A DNA stretch of 25,366 nt, taken from positions 1-25,366 of the IMG/VR virus record IMGVR_UViG_3300025889_000869; one strand, given 5' to 3'. Source of the DNA: a virus. The notes below the pieces were generated by a model. That model saw nothing but the letters and a program-made list of their open reading frames with translations. It ran no database searches and was not told the DNA's origin. The position numbers were made by a program, and so were the translations under genes. Below, piece after piece: positions 6,698 through 25,245 of the stretch (its first letter is position 1; the number at the start of each line of letters is the position of its first letter).

Positions 6698-6895
6698 CTA
6701 AAACTTTAACCACTTTTTGCGGCGTTGGTATTTCCTAATCAATCGTGCGTTGTTGTTCAATAGGTTCACAATGTCGTCGTTCCATTGCGTCGCGCTGGCC
6801 ACCAACATCGTGTTCAATGAATCCCATTGCAATTCAACGATGTATTGGTCGACAAACATTTTGTGACGCCTCTTTCGAATTATCCTTTTAAACAT
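6698..6895 (-). CDS. Basic hypothetical protein
   Basis: From ATG 6895, which overlaps the stop of the DnaA-like gene by 8 nt, this encodes 65 residues. The N-terminus is strongly basic (FKRIIRKRRHK), the middle is neutral and helical with tryptophans, and the C-terminus is again basic (RKYQRRKKWLKF). Such a charge pattern suits a DNA- or RNA-binding protein. A second ATG at residue 13 would remove the first basic patch. Its overlap with the DnaA-like gene suggests the two are made together. Confidence 0.55.
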   Translation of the reverse strand: MFKRIIRKRRHKMFVDQYIVELQWDSLNTMLVASATQWNDDIVNLLNNNARLIRKYQRRKKWLKF

Positions 6896-7301
6896 AGGCG
6901 TCCAACTTTTCACGCAACGATTGGTTTTCACGTTGCAGTTCATCAACTTGTTCCGTCAATTCGTGAATCTGTTCTTTTCGCAACTCGCGTTCCTTCTTCG
7001 CGTGTCTTGCGCGGTCATCATATTCCGCCAACACTTCCATCAATCGTTCGTATATTTCAACGTATTGTGGCAACCTCATGAATGATTCATGATTCTTGAA
7101 ATGGTGCAAAATGGTGGCGTGGTTCTTTTCGAAGAATTGGCCAATTTGCGTCGCGGAATAATATCCGCGACACACATTGAACAACGCCGCCCGTGGAATG
7201 ACGACGGCTTCTTTTCTGGTCTTTTCCATTGCGTTGACATTGTATTCGTCGCGCAACACCTTGACCATTTCTTCCATCATCATAATTGGTCTAACGTTCA
7301 T
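6888..7301 (-). CDS. DnaA domain IV-like DNA-binding protein with coiled coil
   Basis: A 137-residue protein. Residues about 37-75 match the helix-turn-helix of DnaA domain IV: RAALFNVCRGYYSATQIG, then FFEKNHATILHH, corresponding to the DnaA signature in which an IG-x-x-F helix is followed by (K/R)-x-H-(S/A)-T-(V/I). The AAA+ ATPase part of DnaA is absent. After residue 97 there is a long basic then leucine-rich heptad region (RELRKEQIHELTEQVDELQR) that should form a coiled coil and dimerise the protein. It probably recognises DnaA-box-like sites, either at the phage origin or as a competitor of host DnaA. It sits between the ssDNA-binding protein and the small basic gene in the early operon. 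The domain IV match is convincing by eye. Confidence 0.75.
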   Translation of the reverse strand: MNVRPIMMMEEMVKVLRDEYNVNAMEKTRKEAVVIPRAALFNVCRGYYSATQIGQFFEKNHATILHHFKNHESFMRLPQYVEIYERLMEVLAEYDDRARHAKKERELRKEQIHELTEQVDELQRENQSLREKLDAYV

Positions 7302-8090: not shown

Positions 8091-8297
8091 TTATGCTTTG
8101 TCATGCGTGTACCACCAATTGTTTGTTTTCAAAAACAACAATGCGTTTTTCTTAGTGCGACATGATGCCACACGTTCGCCGTTCTTTTTTATGGACCAAC
8201 AACGGACAATGCCGTTGGAAACCATTGTGTTCAATAAATACAATTCGCCGTTCATTTCGACCTGGTATTTCCCTTTTGAAATCTTTGTTGTTGTCAT
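8091..8297 (-). CDS. Small hypothetical protein after the hairpin
   Basis: A 68-residue basic protein with probable beta strands (KGKYQVEMNGELYLLNTMVS) and a tryptophan-rich C-terminus (KTNNWWYTHDKA). Translation starts 17 nt after a conserved stem-loop, the same arrangement as the gene at 24611-24844, although the two proteins do not look alike. No family is recognised. The hairpin may control translation of this gene or separate it from the upstream message. Confidence 0.6.
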   Translation of the reverse strand: MTTTKISKGKYQVEMNGELYLLNTMVSNGIVRCWSIKKNGERVASCRTKKNALLFLKTNNWWYTHDKA

Positions 8298-8314
8298 CTT
8301 TACTTTTGTTTTAT

Positions 8315-8366
8315 ACCACCAAATCCCCGCATTTGTTTCAGTGCGGGGCGGTGGTTTATTGTTGGT
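8315..8366 (-). ncRNA. Structured intergenic RNA element, copy 1
   Basis: A 52-nt element that starts one base after the stop of the upstream gene. Read on the minus strand it has an outer stem ACCACC/GGTGGT, a one-base and a four-base internal loop, an inner 7-bp stem CCCCGCA/TGCGGGG and a 10-nt loop CTGAAACAAA, preceded by ACCAACAATAA. A second copy lies at 24867-24918. The two differ at five positions, of which four form two compensatory base-pair changes in the inner stem. There is no U-tract directly after it, so it is not a standard terminator. It may be a protein-binding site, an attenuator or a processing site. Confidence 0.75.
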
Positions 8367-8367
8367 T

Positions 8368-8598
8368 TTATAGTTTTTCTAATTCATCAACGCTTTCAAT
8401 TCCGTGGTCATCAAGAAAAGATTCAGCGGTTGTATATGAATATCTTCTTTCTTGTTTCTTGTAATATGCAACAATGCAAGGTGTATCCGATTCTTTTTGA
8501 TTGTAGTAGAAATAATCTAAACCTTCAATTTTTTTGGACCTAAAAGAATTGATTTTTAGGATTTGTGCAATTTGAAATAGTGTCATTCTTGTTTCCAT
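8368..8598 (-). CDS. Small hypothetical protein, first early gene
   Basis: A 76-residue protein starting at ATG 8598. A helix-turn-helix-like beginning (TLFQIAQILKINSFRSKK) is followed by an aromatic, tyrosine-rich middle (LDYFYYNQ, VAYYKKQERRYSYT) and an acidic tail. It is the first gene after the intergenic promoter and is preceded by the A-rich leader AAACAAAAACAAAGACAAA, nearly identical to the leader of the gene at 24920-25168. First position after the early promoter would suit a regulator, but this is inference. No family is recognised. Confidence 0.6.
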   Translation of the reverse strand: METRMTLFQIAQILKINSFRSKKIEGLDYFYYNQKESDTPCIVAYYKKQERRYSYTTAESFLDDHGIESVDELEKL

Positions 8599-8617
8599 TT
8601 TGTCTTTGTTTTTGTTT
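8596..8617 (-). promoter_or_regulatory. Repeated A-rich 5' leader, copy 1
   Basis: The 19 nt before ATG 8598 read AAACAAAAACAAAGACAAA. The gene starting at 25168 has the same leader with one additional A. Neither has a Shine-Dalgarno sequence; A-rich unstructured leaders are typical of Bacteroidetes translation starts. Confidence 0.55.
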
Positions 8618-8624
8618 AACAATG

Positions 8625-8655
8625 TAAATGTAAAATAAATATTTTAAATACACAA
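8625..8655 (-). promoter_or_regulatory. Candidate early promoter
   Basis: On the minus strand TACATTTA (8625-8632) matches seven of eight positions of the Bacteroidetes -7 consensus TAnnTTTG, and a TTG (8653-8655) lies 20 nt upstream, within the range known for the -33 element. It is located just before the A-rich leader of the first early gene and would drive the whole replication operon. Confidence 0.5.
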
Positions 8656-8850
8656 TATGTGGACAAAAATAATTGTGAATAATCCAATAATAATTCACCA
8701 CGCTAAATCTTGACATTCACTCACAAAAATTTTAATTTGGCCAAGTGGCTTTGCCCCTCGGGGCGGGGGCAGAACACATGGACAAATTAAAGAATAAATT
8801 TTTTCATAAAAATACAATCGTTTTTCTTGCTCTTAACGAATTGTTGTGTG
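8640..8850. other. AT-rich intergenic region, candidate replication origin
   Basis: Part of the only gene-free stretch over 300 bases in the window (8599-8969). It holds TGTGAATAA at 8674-8682 (TTATTCACA on the minus strand, a match to the DnaA-box pattern TTWTNCACA) and TGTGGACAA at 8658-8666 (one mismatch). A perfect 9-bp inverted repeat, TTTAATTTG at 8731-8739 and CAAATTAAA at 8783-8791, encloses two small hairpins, GCCA-AG-TGGC and GCCCC-TC-GGGGC, giving a possible three-way junction. The rest is A/T runs. With a DnaA domain IV-like protein and a primase-helicase encoded just downstream, an origin is a reasonable hypothesis, not shown. Confidence 0.4.
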
Positions 8851-8898: not shown

Positions 8899-8927
8899 AA
8901 AAAAAGGGACGTCCAAAAGAACGTCCC
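8899..8927 (-). terminator. Rho-independent terminator of the late operon
   Basis: On the minus strand GGGACGT, an 8-nt loop and ACGTCCC are followed by seven T. It lies about 40 nt after the spanin gene stop and closes the lysis cassette. Its stem sequence closely resembles the terminator at 24537-24569. Confidence 0.85.
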
Positions 8928-8969
8928 CACAACAACAAAACAATCGGTCGCCCGATTGTACGTTTTGCG

Positions 8970-17638: not shown

Positions 17639-17943
17639 TTTTTTTCCGTCTTGTTCGCGAATTGTTGTTCAAAAACGTCGAATGCCTTTTCAATCAACAT
17701 TTCATCTTCATCAATCCAATCCGCAACGTCGGCGACATCATATCGGAACGGCGTTTTTTCTTTTCGCGCCCCGTCTTTAAATCCGCAAAACATTAGCGTG
17801 ATGGCTTGGTCCAACGTCATGTCGTCACCCAATGATTCCAATTGCGCCAATGTTGTTCCCGTCATTCTTGAGAATTCACGCAACGCGTTGAATCCAAATC
17901 GAATCGGGTGTTTTCTTTCACCAATTTCAATAATGTGTGTCAT
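17635..17943 (-). CDS. Tail assembly chaperone G part
   Basis: A 102-residue helical protein encoded between the tail tube and tape measure genes, the fixed position of tail assembly chaperones (lambda gpG-like). It contains RKHPIRFGFNALREFSRMTG and the helices DDMTLDQAITLMFCGFKDGA and DWIDEDEMLIEKAFDVFEQQ. The last codons are GAA AAA AAG followed directly by TAG, which form a canonical -1 slippery heptamer. In most initiations the short product is made; a fraction should shift into the T frame. The leader before ATG 17943 is A-rich (AACAACAACAAAACAAAAAG). Confidence 0.85.
   Translation of the reverse strand: MTHIIEIGERKHPIRFGFNALREFSRMTGTTLAQLESLGDDMTLDQAITLMFCGFKDGARKEKTPFRYDVADVADWIDEDEMLIEKAFDVFEQQFANKTEKK
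17638..17644 (-). promoter_or_regulatory. -1 programmed ribosomal frameshift site A AAA AAG
   Basis: The heptamer A AAA AAG is in the correct phase relative to the chaperone G frame and is followed at once by the in-frame TAG. The -1 frame is open into the T domain. A weak stem (GTTGA with TCAAC) can form downstream and may help. Confidence 0.85.
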
Positions 17944-17966: not shown

Positions 17967-17995
17967 AAAAATGGGAACGCCCGACGGACGTTCCC
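17967..17995 (-). terminator. Hairpin with T-tract after the tail tube gene
   Basis: On the minus strand GGGAACG pairs with CGTTCCC across a 9-nt loop, followed by ATTTTT. It lies 8 nt after the tail tube stop. It may be a partial terminator that lowers chaperone and tape-measure levels relative to the abundant tube protein. Confidence 0.65.
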
Positions 17996-21718: not shown

Positions 21719-23280
21719 CGTGTTAAATTTAGAATTTTACTTTTATACAAATAAATGTTGGACACTTCTTCGCCATCGTTTGAAACAGAATCACCCGCGT
21801 TGGGTGGTGTTGTTTCAATTGGTGGTGTTTCCGTTTCCAAATCGCGTTTCAATTCCGATGTCGCCATTTGATACGCGGGCATTGCCACGGGACTGACATC
21901 AATCAAACGTGATACTTTTTCAATGATTCGGTACGTTTTGCCGTCGCGTTCTTCCCATCGGTCTTGACCGATTAGGAATGCGAACGACGATTGATTGATG
22001 TCGCCACGCTTCATCAATTCAACCAAATCATTGGCATATGTTGTATTGGGCAAATCGACTTCGTAGTACAAACCGCGTTTGTCCGTTCCGATTCTTAGCG
22101 TGCCACTTGACACACGCCCCAATAAATAATTTTCGTCATGGTTGTAATATGCGCGAACGTCGTCATTCATCACGTCGTCGAATGCGCCTTTTTCTATTTG
22201 CTCATAATACCCCATGAATTCGGAATCCGAATCATAAACGGCCGCATAACCACGAACGACATCGCCGTTGTGTTCCATGCTTTCCATTCGGAATTCCCTT
22301 TGTTCTATTACGCCAGAAGATTTGCGAACTTCGGCGTCAAATTTTTCCAATGAACTGAAACGATGCGCCACATTCAAAACGGGTTTGCGCTCAATATACG
22401 CATCTTCTTCGCTTGAATATCTAAACAACCGAATCAACGCCGCTGGGTCGTCGCTTGTTCCGTTCACCTCAAAACCCGAATCCGCTTCAATCACGCCGTC
22501 GGTTTCCACTTGGATGATTCGTCCGTAAGCATTGCCGCCCGATGAATTCCATTTCACGAAATCACCAACCGACAATTCGTCGGGTTCCGCGCGTTCTTCA
22601 ACCAAGATTCCGCGAACACTTTCAACGACCGATGAATTGTTGTCGTAATGACGACCGATTTCCAATTCTTGAATCTTTGCGATTTTGCTTTCATCGTCGC
22701 CCATAGCGAACACGCGTTCTTTGTCAATGCCGTTCGCAATGGCGAACCCTTGCAAATATTCATCGTTCTCGCGTGCGCTTATGATGTAAATTTCCGAACC
22801 TTTGTTTTTTTCTTCTTCAAAATATGCGCGTCCCGCTTCCGTGTTCAATGTGCCATCAAAATCAAACGACACTTTTTCCATTTCTGGTTCTTCGCTCATT
22901 TCCGATTTGCCAAACGTGATGACGATTTCGTCATCTGTTTCAATCACGGATTTGATATGTCTTTTCTTTTCTTCCATTTGTTCAATCGTTCTTTTTGCCC
23001 AACGCAACATTTCATCGCCACCCCATGCCGCGTACATTATCGAACCGCAAATTTCCTTTCCATCCTCATCAAAGAAATCGCCTTGGTCGTACACTTTGGC
23101 GCGTGATAAAAATGAATAAGTGCGAACCAAAACATCGTCCGAAATCGGGTCGCCCTTTGATAAGGTGTTGGCTCTTTGCCAACCCACGGGCGTTCCACAA
23201 TCCGTTCCGTTTTCTTCGCGGTGTTTCAACGCTTTTGACGCATTATCTCGCGCCGCTTTAGGGTAGTTATTCCACGGCAT
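21715..23280 (-). CDS. Multidomain capsid maturation protease polyprotein
   Basis: A 521-residue protein with at least four modules. Residues about 1-103 form a domain (NASKALKHREENG, CGTPVGWQRANTLSKG, YAAWGGDEMLRWAK) that I know from other phage protease and virion polyproteins. About 136-222 is HAD-like: FDFDGTLN (D140, D142), YIISAR (S168), GDDESK and HYDNN (D213). About 236-290 is a small beta barrel (SVGDFVKWNSSGG), Tudor/HVA1-like. About 325-480 is an HK97-type prohead protease of the U35/S78 family: H381 in YYNHDENYLLGR, serines 431-432 in INQSSFAF and the closing DVSPVAMPAYQM. HK97 gp4 has about 225 residues. It sits between portal and capsid, overlapping both. Confidence 0.88.
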   Translation of the reverse strand: MPWNNYPKAARDNASKALKHREENGTDCGTPVGWQRANTLSKGDPISDDVLVRTYSFLSRAKVYDQGDFFDEDGKEICGSIMYAAWGGDEMLRWAKRTIEQMEEKKRHIKSVIETDDEIVITFGKSEMSEEPEMEKVSFDFDGTLNTEAGRAYFEEEKNKGSEIYIISARENDEYLQGFAIANGIDKERVFAMGDDESKIAKIQELEIGRHYDNNSSVVESVRGILVEERAEPDELSVGDFVKWNSSGGNAYGRIIQVETDGVIEADSGFEVNGTSDDPAALIRLFRYSSEEDAYIERKPVLNVAHRFSSLEKFDAEVRKSSGVIEQREFRMESMEHNGDVVRGYAAVYDSDSEFMGYYEQIEKGAFDDVMNDDVRAYYNHDENYLLGRVSSGTLRIGTDKRGLYYEVDLPNTTYANDLVELMKRGDINQSSFAFLIGQDRWEERDGKTYRIIEKVSRLIDVSPVAMPAYQMATSELKRDLETETPPIETTPPNAGDSVSNDGEEVSNIYLYKSKILNLTR

Positions 23281-24487
23281 CGTTTGCGTCGTTTACATTG
23301 GCGGAAACGTCCGTCATGTTCAGCGGTTGCAAATACACATTGCCGCCGTCAATCGGTTCCATATTTTCAAAACGTCGAATGTCATTGGCGGACAAAAATC
23401 CCCATTGACGCGCGACGGCATACGATTGATAACGCGACTTAATATCGCCACGCAACAATCCATCCATTTCAAATCGGATGTAATAATCGGAATCACCGAC
23501 AAACAATTTTCGGTTCAATTCGGCTTCCCATCTTTTCACCCATGGCAAAATCGTGTTTCGTTGGAACATGATTCCTTGTTCTTCGACATTCGCTCGCGTT
23601 GAACTTTGGTCCATAGAACCCAGATAAGCCAACGGCAAACGGAAAAATCTTGCAATATCTTCAACGCCAAATTTCCGCGTGGAAATGAATTGTGAATCTT
23701 GCGGTGAAACGGACAATTTGGTCACGTTCATGCCTTCTTCCAATATGGCGGTTTTGTGTGAATTGTTCAACCCCGTGTTTCTTTGCGACCACGAACGCAT
23801 CAATCTTTTATAGGCTTCGTCGCTCAATCTTGCTGGGTGTGTCAACACCGCTGAAATGTTCGCGCCGTTTCCAAAGAATGAACCACCGAATTGGTCGGCG
23901 GCCAATCCAAGGCCAATCGATTCACGCGCACATTCAATCACAGATTTCCCAACAACGCCGTCAAATCCTAATCCAACAATGTGAATCATTTCCGAATCGT
24001 CGAACGTTTCTTTGTCGTCTATCTGGTAAAACTTTTCGTCCTCGTATATCTTGACCGATACGCGTTCGGGGGCAATCGGAATCAATTTGATTGGGTTCCC
24101 CGCGTTGTCGCGTTTGATTGCGATGAATGCGTTTCCGTGCAAACAAAGATTTGCTTGACACGTTTCGCGGAATGTAAAATCCGACATCAATTGATTCGGT
24201 TCGTGAATCAATTTATTGATGGGATGCGCGTCGGCATTGCGGACCATTCCGTCCGTCGATTGTTTGACGTGCCACGGCAATGTTGCCATCGTTTCCGATA
24301 TTACACGAACCGCCCCAAATACCGCGGACAATTGCATCGCGGTGTTTTCAGTTACAGAAATCCCCGTTTTTGATTCATTTCCCGCGAACAACCATTCGGC
24401 GGGATTCGACAAATTTGTCGATGGGCGATTCGGGTTGTTTCGAAACGCGCCCAATATTCGCCCAAACAAGTTTTGATTTTCGGCCAT
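23267..24487 (-). CDS. Portal protein (HK97 gp3 family)
   Basis: A 406-residue portal protein. Motifs in order: VTENTAMQLSAVFGAVRVIS (N-terminal helix region), ATLPWHVK, HPINKLIHEPNQLMSDFTFR, NLCLHGNAFIAIKRD, LIPIAPERVSVK, IVGLGFDGVVGKSVIECARE, then EDIARFFRLPLAYLG, TRANVEEQGIMFQRNTILPW and FEMDGLLRGDIKSRYQSY. Twelve copies form the DNA gate at the capsid vertex to which terminase docks. It follows the 24537-24569 terminator, so it probably heads the late structural operon. Terminase genes usually lie upstream; here two small genes and a terminator do. Confidence 0.95.
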   Translation of the reverse strand: MAENQNLFGRILGAFRNNPNRPSTNLSNPAEWLFAGNESKTGISVTENTAMQLSAVFGAVRVISETMATLPWHVKQSTDGMVRNADAHPINKLIHEPNQLMSDFTFRETCQANLCLHGNAFIAIKRDNAGNPIKLIPIAPERVSVKIYEDEKFYQIDDKETFDDSEMIHIVGLGFDGVVGKSVIECARESIGLGLAADQFGGSFFGNGANISAVLTHPARLSDEAYKRLMRSWSQRNTGLNNSHKTAILEEGMNVTKLSVSPQDSQFISTRKFGVEDIARFFRLPLAYLGSMDQSSTRANVEEQGIMFQRNTILPWVKRWEAELNRKLFVGDSDYYIRFEMDGLLRGDIKSRYQSYAVARQWGFLSANDIRRFENMEPIDGGNVYLQPLNMTDVSANVNDANDAVE

Positions 24488-24536: not shown

Positions 24537-24569
24537 AAAAAAAAGGGACATCCAAAAAATGAATGTCCC
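24537..24569 (-). terminator. Rho-independent terminator before portal
   Basis: On the minus strand GGGACAT, an 11-nt loop and ATGTCCC are followed by eight T. It ends the two-gene unit at 25168-24611. The stem is close to that of the 8899-8927 terminator. Confidence 0.85.
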
Positions 24570-24610: not shown

Positions 24611-24844
24611 TTAAATGGGTTTGTGAATCGCCGCGTTTCGTTCCAATCTGTCGTTTAATGCCGAACGGCTAAACGTCACAATGCGGGCGCATTCTTTCAA
24701 TACTATTCCAGCGGGCGAAATGGATTCGACCGAAAATTCTTTTCCCGTGCGCGTCATTTCAATAATGTCGCCAACGTTGATGTCATCAATTGGATTCATC
24801 TTGCGACAAATTACCAAATCATTTGTGGTTGTTGTGTGATACAT
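24611..24844 (-). CDS. Small hypothetical protein after the hairpin
   Basis: A 77-residue protein with a likely small beta barrel: INVGDIIEMTRTGKEFSVES followed by SPAGIVLKECARIVTFSRSA, reminiscent of SH3/Tudor-like folds, then a short charged helix (NDRLERNAAIHK). No family is recognised. It starts 22 nt after the second copy of the stem-loop element and is followed by a terminator, so it and the upstream gene form a short independent unit before the portal operon. Confidence 0.6.
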   Translation of the reverse strand: MYHTTTTNDLVICRKMNPIDDINVGDIIEMTRTGKEFSVESISPAGIVLKECARIVTFSRSALNDRLERNAAIHKPI

Positions 24845-24866
24845 AAAAAATTATTTTCTGGTTCTT

Positions 24867-24918
24867 ACCACCAAAACCCCCCGTTTGTTTCAGCGGGGGG
24901 CGGTGGTTTATTGTTGGT
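24867..24918 (-). ncRNA. Structured intergenic RNA element, copy 2
   Basis: Same architecture as 8315-8366: outer stem ACCACC/GGTGGT, inner stem CCCCCCG/CGGGGGG, identical loop CTGAAACAAA and identical upstream ACCAACAATAA. It begins one base after the upstream stop codon. The inner stem differs from copy 1 at two base pairs, both changed on both sides. Confidence 0.75.
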
Positions 24919-24919
24919 A

Positions 24920-25168
24920 TTAGAAATCTAAAGTGAAAGAAACTTCTTCAACATCTTTTTCGGTTGCTAATTCTATGTCCATGAATGTTTGGTCGCGTTC
25001 TGTTGGTGATTCAATCACGCAAGTGACACCATCCATTTCGGTCATCAATCTTTGGTATTCTTCCGAATCTTGGTTTTGTAATTTCTTGAATGTTGCGTTT
25101 GATACTTCAACGATGCGTTCTTCGCTTACGATGTAAGTTTCTGTGTAAGTGACTTTAATTGTTTTCAT
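24920..25168 (-). CDS. Small hypothetical protein
   Basis: From ATG 25168 this encodes 82 residues (an in-frame start 17 codons upstream would read through the promoter region and is rejected). It starts with beta strands rich in T, V and I (KTIKVTYTETYIVSEERIVE), has a helical middle (NATFKKLQNQDSEEYQRLM) and an acidic C-terminus (ATEKDVEEVSFTLDF). No known domain. It has its own promoter and the A-rich leader shared with the gene at 8368-8598, and is followed by the second stem-loop element. Confidence 0.65.
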   Translation of the reverse strand: MKTIKVTYTETYIVSEERIVEVSNATFKKLQNQDSEEYQRLMTEMDGVTCVIESPTERDQTFMDIELATEKDVEEVSFTLDF

Positions 25169-25188
25169 TTTGTCTTTTGTTTTTGTTT
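25166..25188 (-). promoter_or_regulatory. Repeated A-rich 5' leader, copy 2
   Basis: The 20 nt before ATG 25168 are AAACAAAAACAAAAGACAAA, one A longer than the leader at 8596-8617. No Shine-Dalgarno sequence is present. Confidence 0.55.
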
Positions 25189-25194
25189 GATATT

Positions 25195-25223
25195 CAAATA
25201 TACAAAAAAAACAATACAATCAA
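25195..25223 (-). promoter_or_regulatory. Bacteroidetes-type promoter
   Basis: On the minus strand TATATTTG (25195-25202) is a perfect match to the -7 consensus TAnnTTTG, with TTG (25221-25223) 18 nt upstream as a -33 element; a TTTTG is just before. It lies between the stop of the partial gene and the A-rich leader of the next. Confidence 0.7.
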
Positions 25224-25245
25224 CAAAACGTGAAAAACTTTTTTT

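Follow-up and report, generated by a model that had tools for sequence, protein, structure and literature searches.

A tailed RNA hairpin family at operon heads of uncultured viruses, a candidate antitermination signal

The window analyzed here is the entire uncultured virus record IMGVR_UViG_3300025889_000869 (25,366 bp), which is possibly a fragment because IMG/VR lists it without end repeats. Its minus strand, the coding strand across nearly the entire window, bears two 52-nucleotide (nt) elements at 8366-8315 (element 1) and 24918-24867 (element 2). Judged from their relatives, the two are not a private duplication; they are members of a previously unlisted RNA family known from over 100 fragments of uncultured viruses. 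Its consensus is a GC-rich hairpin of free sequence, followed without gap by the tail N-UUUGGUGGUA-N-AAA. The genomic position of these elements suggests that they may act as promoter-proximal RNA signals for processive antitermination, a reading for and against which we find the balance even.

The RNA family and its anatomy

Elements 1 and 2 are identical at 47 of 52 positions, while the top 52-mer match in 30 Markov-random windows reached 34. In element 1, an A/C-rich leader precedes the hairpin CCCCGCA-CTGAAACAAA-TGCGGGG (8325..8348; 7 bp, with a 10-nt loop at 8332-8341) and the conserved tail TTTGGTGGTATAAA (8310..8323). Element 2 carries the same loop (24884-24893) in the hairpin CCCCCCG-CTGAAACAAA-CGGGGGG (24877..24900), and its tail is TTTGGTGGTAAGAA (24862..24875). 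Four of the five differences form two compensatory swaps in the 7-bp inner stem, G22C with C37G and A24G with T35C, and the fifth is an unpaired A/T change. Each element begins one base past a TAA, and the next ATG lies 17 or 22 nt beyond its end. The coordinates, identity, base changes and placement between stop and start codons given for both copies in the original prediction were all verified, as were the two swaps. Both elements also fold clearly better than 200 shuffles (coding-strand z of -4.5 and -3.6). No third copy stood out when the window was searched with R1, the covariance model of the family.

The first scan for relatives used a pattern made of the 5' half and the loop only, and demanded nothing 3' of the loop. 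It matched 16 viral contigs, 14 of them relatives of the elements, and all 14 carried the complementary 3' arm and then N-TTTGG, though neither was demanded. Further pattern scans raised the number to 74 elements, a loop-free scan gave 114 stretches, and a combined descriptor found 142 elements across viral loci totaling 2.37 Mb, versus 2 across bacterial control loci totaling 351 kb. Some members are doubtful, such as L162 and L122, which resemble chance matches. Covariation statistics on relatives, proposed as a check in the original prediction, were obtained from 57 dereplicated elements whose 5' arm was unconstrained by the search. The inner stem was fully paired in 55 of the 57, compared with 21% when arms were swapped, and six of its seven pairs change on both sides in a 44-sequence alignment. 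Among 63 sites picked by the tail alone, a stem of at least 6 bp was present in 56, versus 18% after shuffling. The claim that a secondary structure is under selection and used more than once per genome is borne out by this inner-stem covariation.

The inner stems of the 57 elements contain 18 G-U pairs and no A-C mismatch. This asymmetry points to the coding-strand RNA as the selected molecule, so that of the two options originally offered, RNA or single-stranded DNA, the first stood and the second did not; on these pairing counts, the hairpin is one of RNA. A hairpin working at the DNA level, as an N4-type phage RNA polymerase promoter or as a recombination or mobile hairpin marking gene cassettes, is accordingly very improbable in our estimation. 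Related phages do have different genes after the element, which would suit a cassette mark, but the G-U versus A-C asymmetry shows selection on transcribed RNA, the listed elements always have the same orientation relative to the following gene, and host-type promoters are already present upstream of them.

Conservation is highest in the 3' tail UUUGGUGGUA, partly by construction because the family was gathered with tail-based patterns; unbiased support comes from the 14 relatives of the 5'-half-and-loop scan and, for the last five tail bases, from a separate further scan. The conserved loop, originally regarded as a key feature, marks a subfamily only, and other copies, some of them in the same genomes, have different loops. 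Loops as divergent as TGAAAA, TTAACG, UUCG and TCTTGACCGG sit on the same tail TTTTGGTGGTA shortly before an ATG, and GAAA and TAAC (UAAC in RNA) tetraloops are common among members from the loop-free scan. The GAAA, TTAACG, UUCG and other loops on this tail rule out CTGAAAYAAA as a defining loop. The outer stem was likewise dropped as a general core: 67% of its cells are paired, and the 3' arms of 18 variants pair no better with their own 5' arm than with chance partners (mean rank 0.43). It is real in the window phage, and neat pairing also occurs in the single cases L004, L021 and L028. A pseudoknot between loop and tail is ruled out by geometry, as a 1-nt linker cannot span a 7-bp stem. 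Upstream of the elements neither a boxA-like nor any other conserved motif was found.

About 330 bp upstream of the element in locus L009 lies a terminator, GCCCCCCCGCTGAAACGGGGGGC-TTTTTT, that is a near-match to the element hairpin, with the loop CTGAAA and a T-tract. This resemblance suggests that elements and terminators can interconvert.

When R1 was applied to 39 whole viral records, weaker copies appeared in the same genomes. There were one to four matches per record at expectation values (E) up to 0.01, the weakest being doubtful, and these copy numbers are lower bounds because virus records are fragments. Tandem elements lie ahead of consecutive small genes in L015 (2581-3230), L013 (482-726) and L192 (4533-4820), and L208 holds two copies 119 nt apart (2344-2463).

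Distribution and genomic position

None of the 4227 Rfam families matched the window above its curated threshold, and Rfam searches of four loci at E up to 2 returned only tRNA and overlapping or adjacent matches, none at the elements. Blastn comparison with named phages and plasmids produced no credible hit, at a sensitivity limited by the short queries. In 84,980 species genomes there were 46 pattern matches, none with the family hairpin according to a script filter, and in 395 Bacteroidota genomes the tail pattern occurred once, without hairpin, versus twice for the reversed control pattern. In these sequence searches, the family is virus-only and was not found in bacterial chromosomes. The host of these phages probably belongs to the Bacteroidota, because the TAnnTTTG promoter motif is enriched upstream of the elements.

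Positional statistics were based on 109 clusters with unrelated downstream proteins; terminators and promoters were called by consensus scans and open reading frames (ORFs) by a simple script, and 10 of the 109 cluster representatives are doubtful in that they fall within a called ORF. The hairpin starts a median of 20 nt past the upstream stop codon (10th-90th percentile 12-34). Occurrence of the host-type promoter motif is highest between -400 and -200, at 9% and 6% per 100 bp compared with about 1%. On the sense strand, 21/99 clusters have a strong terminator at -1000 to -150, as do 2/99 on the antisense strand, and the sense-strand excess is significant against the -2500 to -1500 stretch (Fisher p 1e-5). 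From these two upstream peaks, the element follows a promoter and one short gene, a little way past the terminator of the preceding operon, and its position is promoter-proximal in long operons, as is characteristic of processive antitermination signals. In L024, an apparent full host-type promoter (TTGG-N-TACCTTTG) was also seen about 50 nt past the element, ahead of the next gene.

Two places recur. One is the junction between lysis genes upstream and a replication operon downstream, with SSB-like, Rep-like and DnaA domain IV-like (DnaA-IV) genes; the other lies between TerL and portal. DnaA-IV is the commonest neighbor family, found at 35 loci with the element and one control locus, typically about 1.9 kb downstream of the element.

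An ATG follows the tail in 129 of 142 elements, at a median of 21 nt. The hairpin and tail could therefore form a post-transcriptional leader that governs translation or stability of the downstream gene, for instance as a protein-binding operator or as a stabilizer near the 5' end after an RNase cut in the A/C-rich stretch upstream. The genes that follow are small, and the tandem copies before adjacent small genes in L015, L013 and L192 would also fit. However, the distance to the ATG varies widely (10th-90th percentile 13-34 nt), the elements concentrate at operon heads with few copies per record, and several have no nearby ORF; the two L208 copies have no ORF of at least 25 amino acids between them. 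The lack of a start codon near the elements of L208, L209, L213 and L250 argues against a pure translation leader, and we consider a leader function possible but rather doubtful. A Shine-Dalgarno role of GGUGGU in the tail is unlikely, because Bacteroidota mRNAs naturally lack such sequences (PMC6847099); variants disrupt the pairing, and the ATG spacing is wide.

The exact location between cistrons, with a long unstructured 5' flank, would also suit a processing site at which an endonuclease cuts the hairpin or tail, so that a short mRNA of the first gene is separated from the long mRNA of the operon. This leaves unexplained both the promoter-proximal bias and why UUUGGUGGUA is fixed in sequence while stem and loop are free, and we judge it improbable.

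Operon layout in the window

All features described in this section are on the minus strand. The structural operon is headed by a Bacteroidota-type promoter, TTG-N-TATATTTG (25195..25226), the sole exact coding-strand match in the window. A short gene of 83 amino acids (24920..25171) lies between this promoter and element 2, which is directly followed by a 77-amino-acid gene conserved in relatives (24611..24844). A strong intrinsic terminator with a 10-bp stem and T8 (24545..24569) then separates this gene from the portal protein (23267..24487), the first large structural gene past the terminator. Among relatives that share this downstream gene, 11 of 11 keep a terminator between element and portal, though with a diverged sequence, and no exact host promoter was found between that terminator and portal in the 11 loci. 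A further candidate terminator, a strong hairpin with a T-rich tail (17973..17995), lies within the structural operon, immediately ahead of the gene at 17943.

The late operon ends at an intrinsic terminator (8905..8928) upstream of the operon of element 1. The sequence TATTTTTG (8664..8671) may be the -7 box of an early promoter, and no -33 box was found at the usual spacing from it. It is one of only three coding-strand TAnnTTTG boxes in the window, two of which stand just before the two element-bearing operons. Between this promoter region and element 1 lies a short gene of 75 amino acids (8368..8595), and a 68-amino-acid gene (8091..8297) comes directly after the element. The early operon also encodes a DnaA domain IV-like protein of 137 amino acids (6888..7301; PF08299 helix-turn-helix, E 1e-7) with a coiled-coil tail. 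The first genes of both operons have a similar 5' leader (AAACAAAAACAAA-GACAAA-ATG), at 8589-8639 and 25159-25209.

Proposed antitermination and comparison with known systems

The original prediction took the element for an operator, a translational switch or a processing site, and apparently not a terminator. The last point agrees with our results, as neither element is among the called terminators of the window and the tail UUUGGUGGUA has no U-rich tract; as to function, the genomic position favors a transcription-elongation signal at operon heads instead. Antitermination is preferred because the element, like putR, LoaP-dfn, conAn and nutR, is promoter-proximal, unmasked by translation and placed before a long operon, at the portal locus with a conserved terminator in between. 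In the proposed mechanism, the element would be transcribed near the start of a long phage operon, after one short gene and just beyond the reach of the ribosome finishing that gene. It would then alter the host RNA polymerase that is transcribing it, so that the enzyme passes later terminators. The RNA might do this alone, like HK022 putRNA, or through a host or phage factor that it recruits, as with nut, LoaP-dfn and ops.

Several observations weigh against antitermination. Terminators within 1 kb downstream are few outside the portal locus (10/93 clusters versus 0/70 at 2-3 kb), about half of those ten clusters being the portal locus itself, and the sequence closely following element 1 yielded none. 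In the spacer that separates terminator from portal, a partly conserved block could be an unrecognized late promoter. Most elements (129/142) lie shortly before an ATG, as a translation or stability leader would, and upstream of them no boxA-like motif was found. Finally, the records revealed no shared trans-factor: none of 50 viral records, which include fragments, has a recognized NusG-domain gene (PF02357), and a DnaA-IV gene is present in 14 of 25 long element records versus 3 of 25 controls. A DnaA-IV protein as universal partner is unsupported on these counts.

Among known systems, HK022 putL and putR are also phage RNA hairpins near early promoters. The put RNA antiterminates without a dedicated protein, through the beta' zinc-binding domain of the polymerase, and independence of such a protein may be a feature of the element as well. 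The put RNA is about 70 nt long with two stem-loops, and some 270 nt separate putR from its start site (PMC9378689), a distance similar to the -200 to -400 at which promoters are found here. Unlike put, the element has a single hairpin of free sequence and a fixed, single-stranded 3' tail, probably belongs to another host phylum and has no noticed sequence similarity. The two adjacent stem-loops of put were not seen, a second small hairpin being present in few copies only. In L203, L209 and L221 such a hairpin (e.g. GGCAATAGTGCC) directly follows the tail, reminiscent of the two-hairpin put RNAs. In phage lambda, the hairpin of nutR is located after the first gene (cro) of the early operon, and the N protein binds boxB at a fixed, GNRA-like loop. 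The element likewise follows the first gene of an operon, but it has no boxA, its loops vary, and its conserved part is 3' of the hairpin.

In the LoaP-dfn system of Bacillus, the leader of an operon forms an RNA hairpin ahead of an intrinsic terminator (PMC12691694). At the portal locus the present element, too, is an operon-leader hairpin before an intrinsic terminator. LoaP, however, depends on a UNCG-type hairpin and a NusG paralog, whereas the loop of the element is free and the searched records yielded no NusG-domain gene. The conAn and EAR RNAs are larger than the element. They are, like it, operon-head RNAs, and the operons that carry them, mobile or biosynthetic, contain internal terminators (PMC8955417). 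In contrast to the element, they belong to Gram-positive hosts, and conAn has the protein partner ConAn1. JUMPstart gave no match in the Rfam searches of the window and the four loci.

The ops site read by RfaH shares with the element a GGNGGTA core near the start of long operons. The tail could accordingly be an ops-like pause and recruitment site in the DNA bubble, where the RNA hairpin would merely stabilize the pause and a host NusG paralog would read GGTA. Nearly all positions of the ops core GGCGGTAG are matched by its GG(T/C)GGTA, and G4-A7 of ops are contacted by RfaH (PMC5995543). The consensus-pause bases G-11, G-10, G-2, Y-1 and G+1 fit TTTGGT|G, each in 128-142 of 142 elements, but the search patterns partly demanded G-10 and G-11, which are stem positions, and T-3 is present in no element. 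Although GGTA is kept, the base equivalent to ops G8 is variable, so that the C3:G8 pair needed by RfaH is not preserved. The 50 viral records yielded no phage NusG paralog; a host paralog could be the reader, and we give this ops-like reading a slight chance.

Returning to antitermination, the boldest version is that a stable, arbitrary hairpin with a fixed UUUGGUGGUA tail reprograms the host RNA polymerase without any phage protein, allowing readthrough of terminators at the heads of replication and structural operons. We put this forward tentatively, as a hypothesis with a minor share of the probability; if correct, these elements would form a novel phage RNA class, distributed among uncultured phages with probable Bacteroidota hosts. 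Descriptions of RNA-only or RNA-guided antitermination are few, and our literature search found none for phages of Bacteroidota. The family occurs on many virus contigs, has a simple anatomy and makes clear predictions that can be assayed. Even if its function were in translation or processing, it would be a widespread virus-specific RNA element missing from Rfam, and it could aid the annotation of operon starts in uncultured phages.
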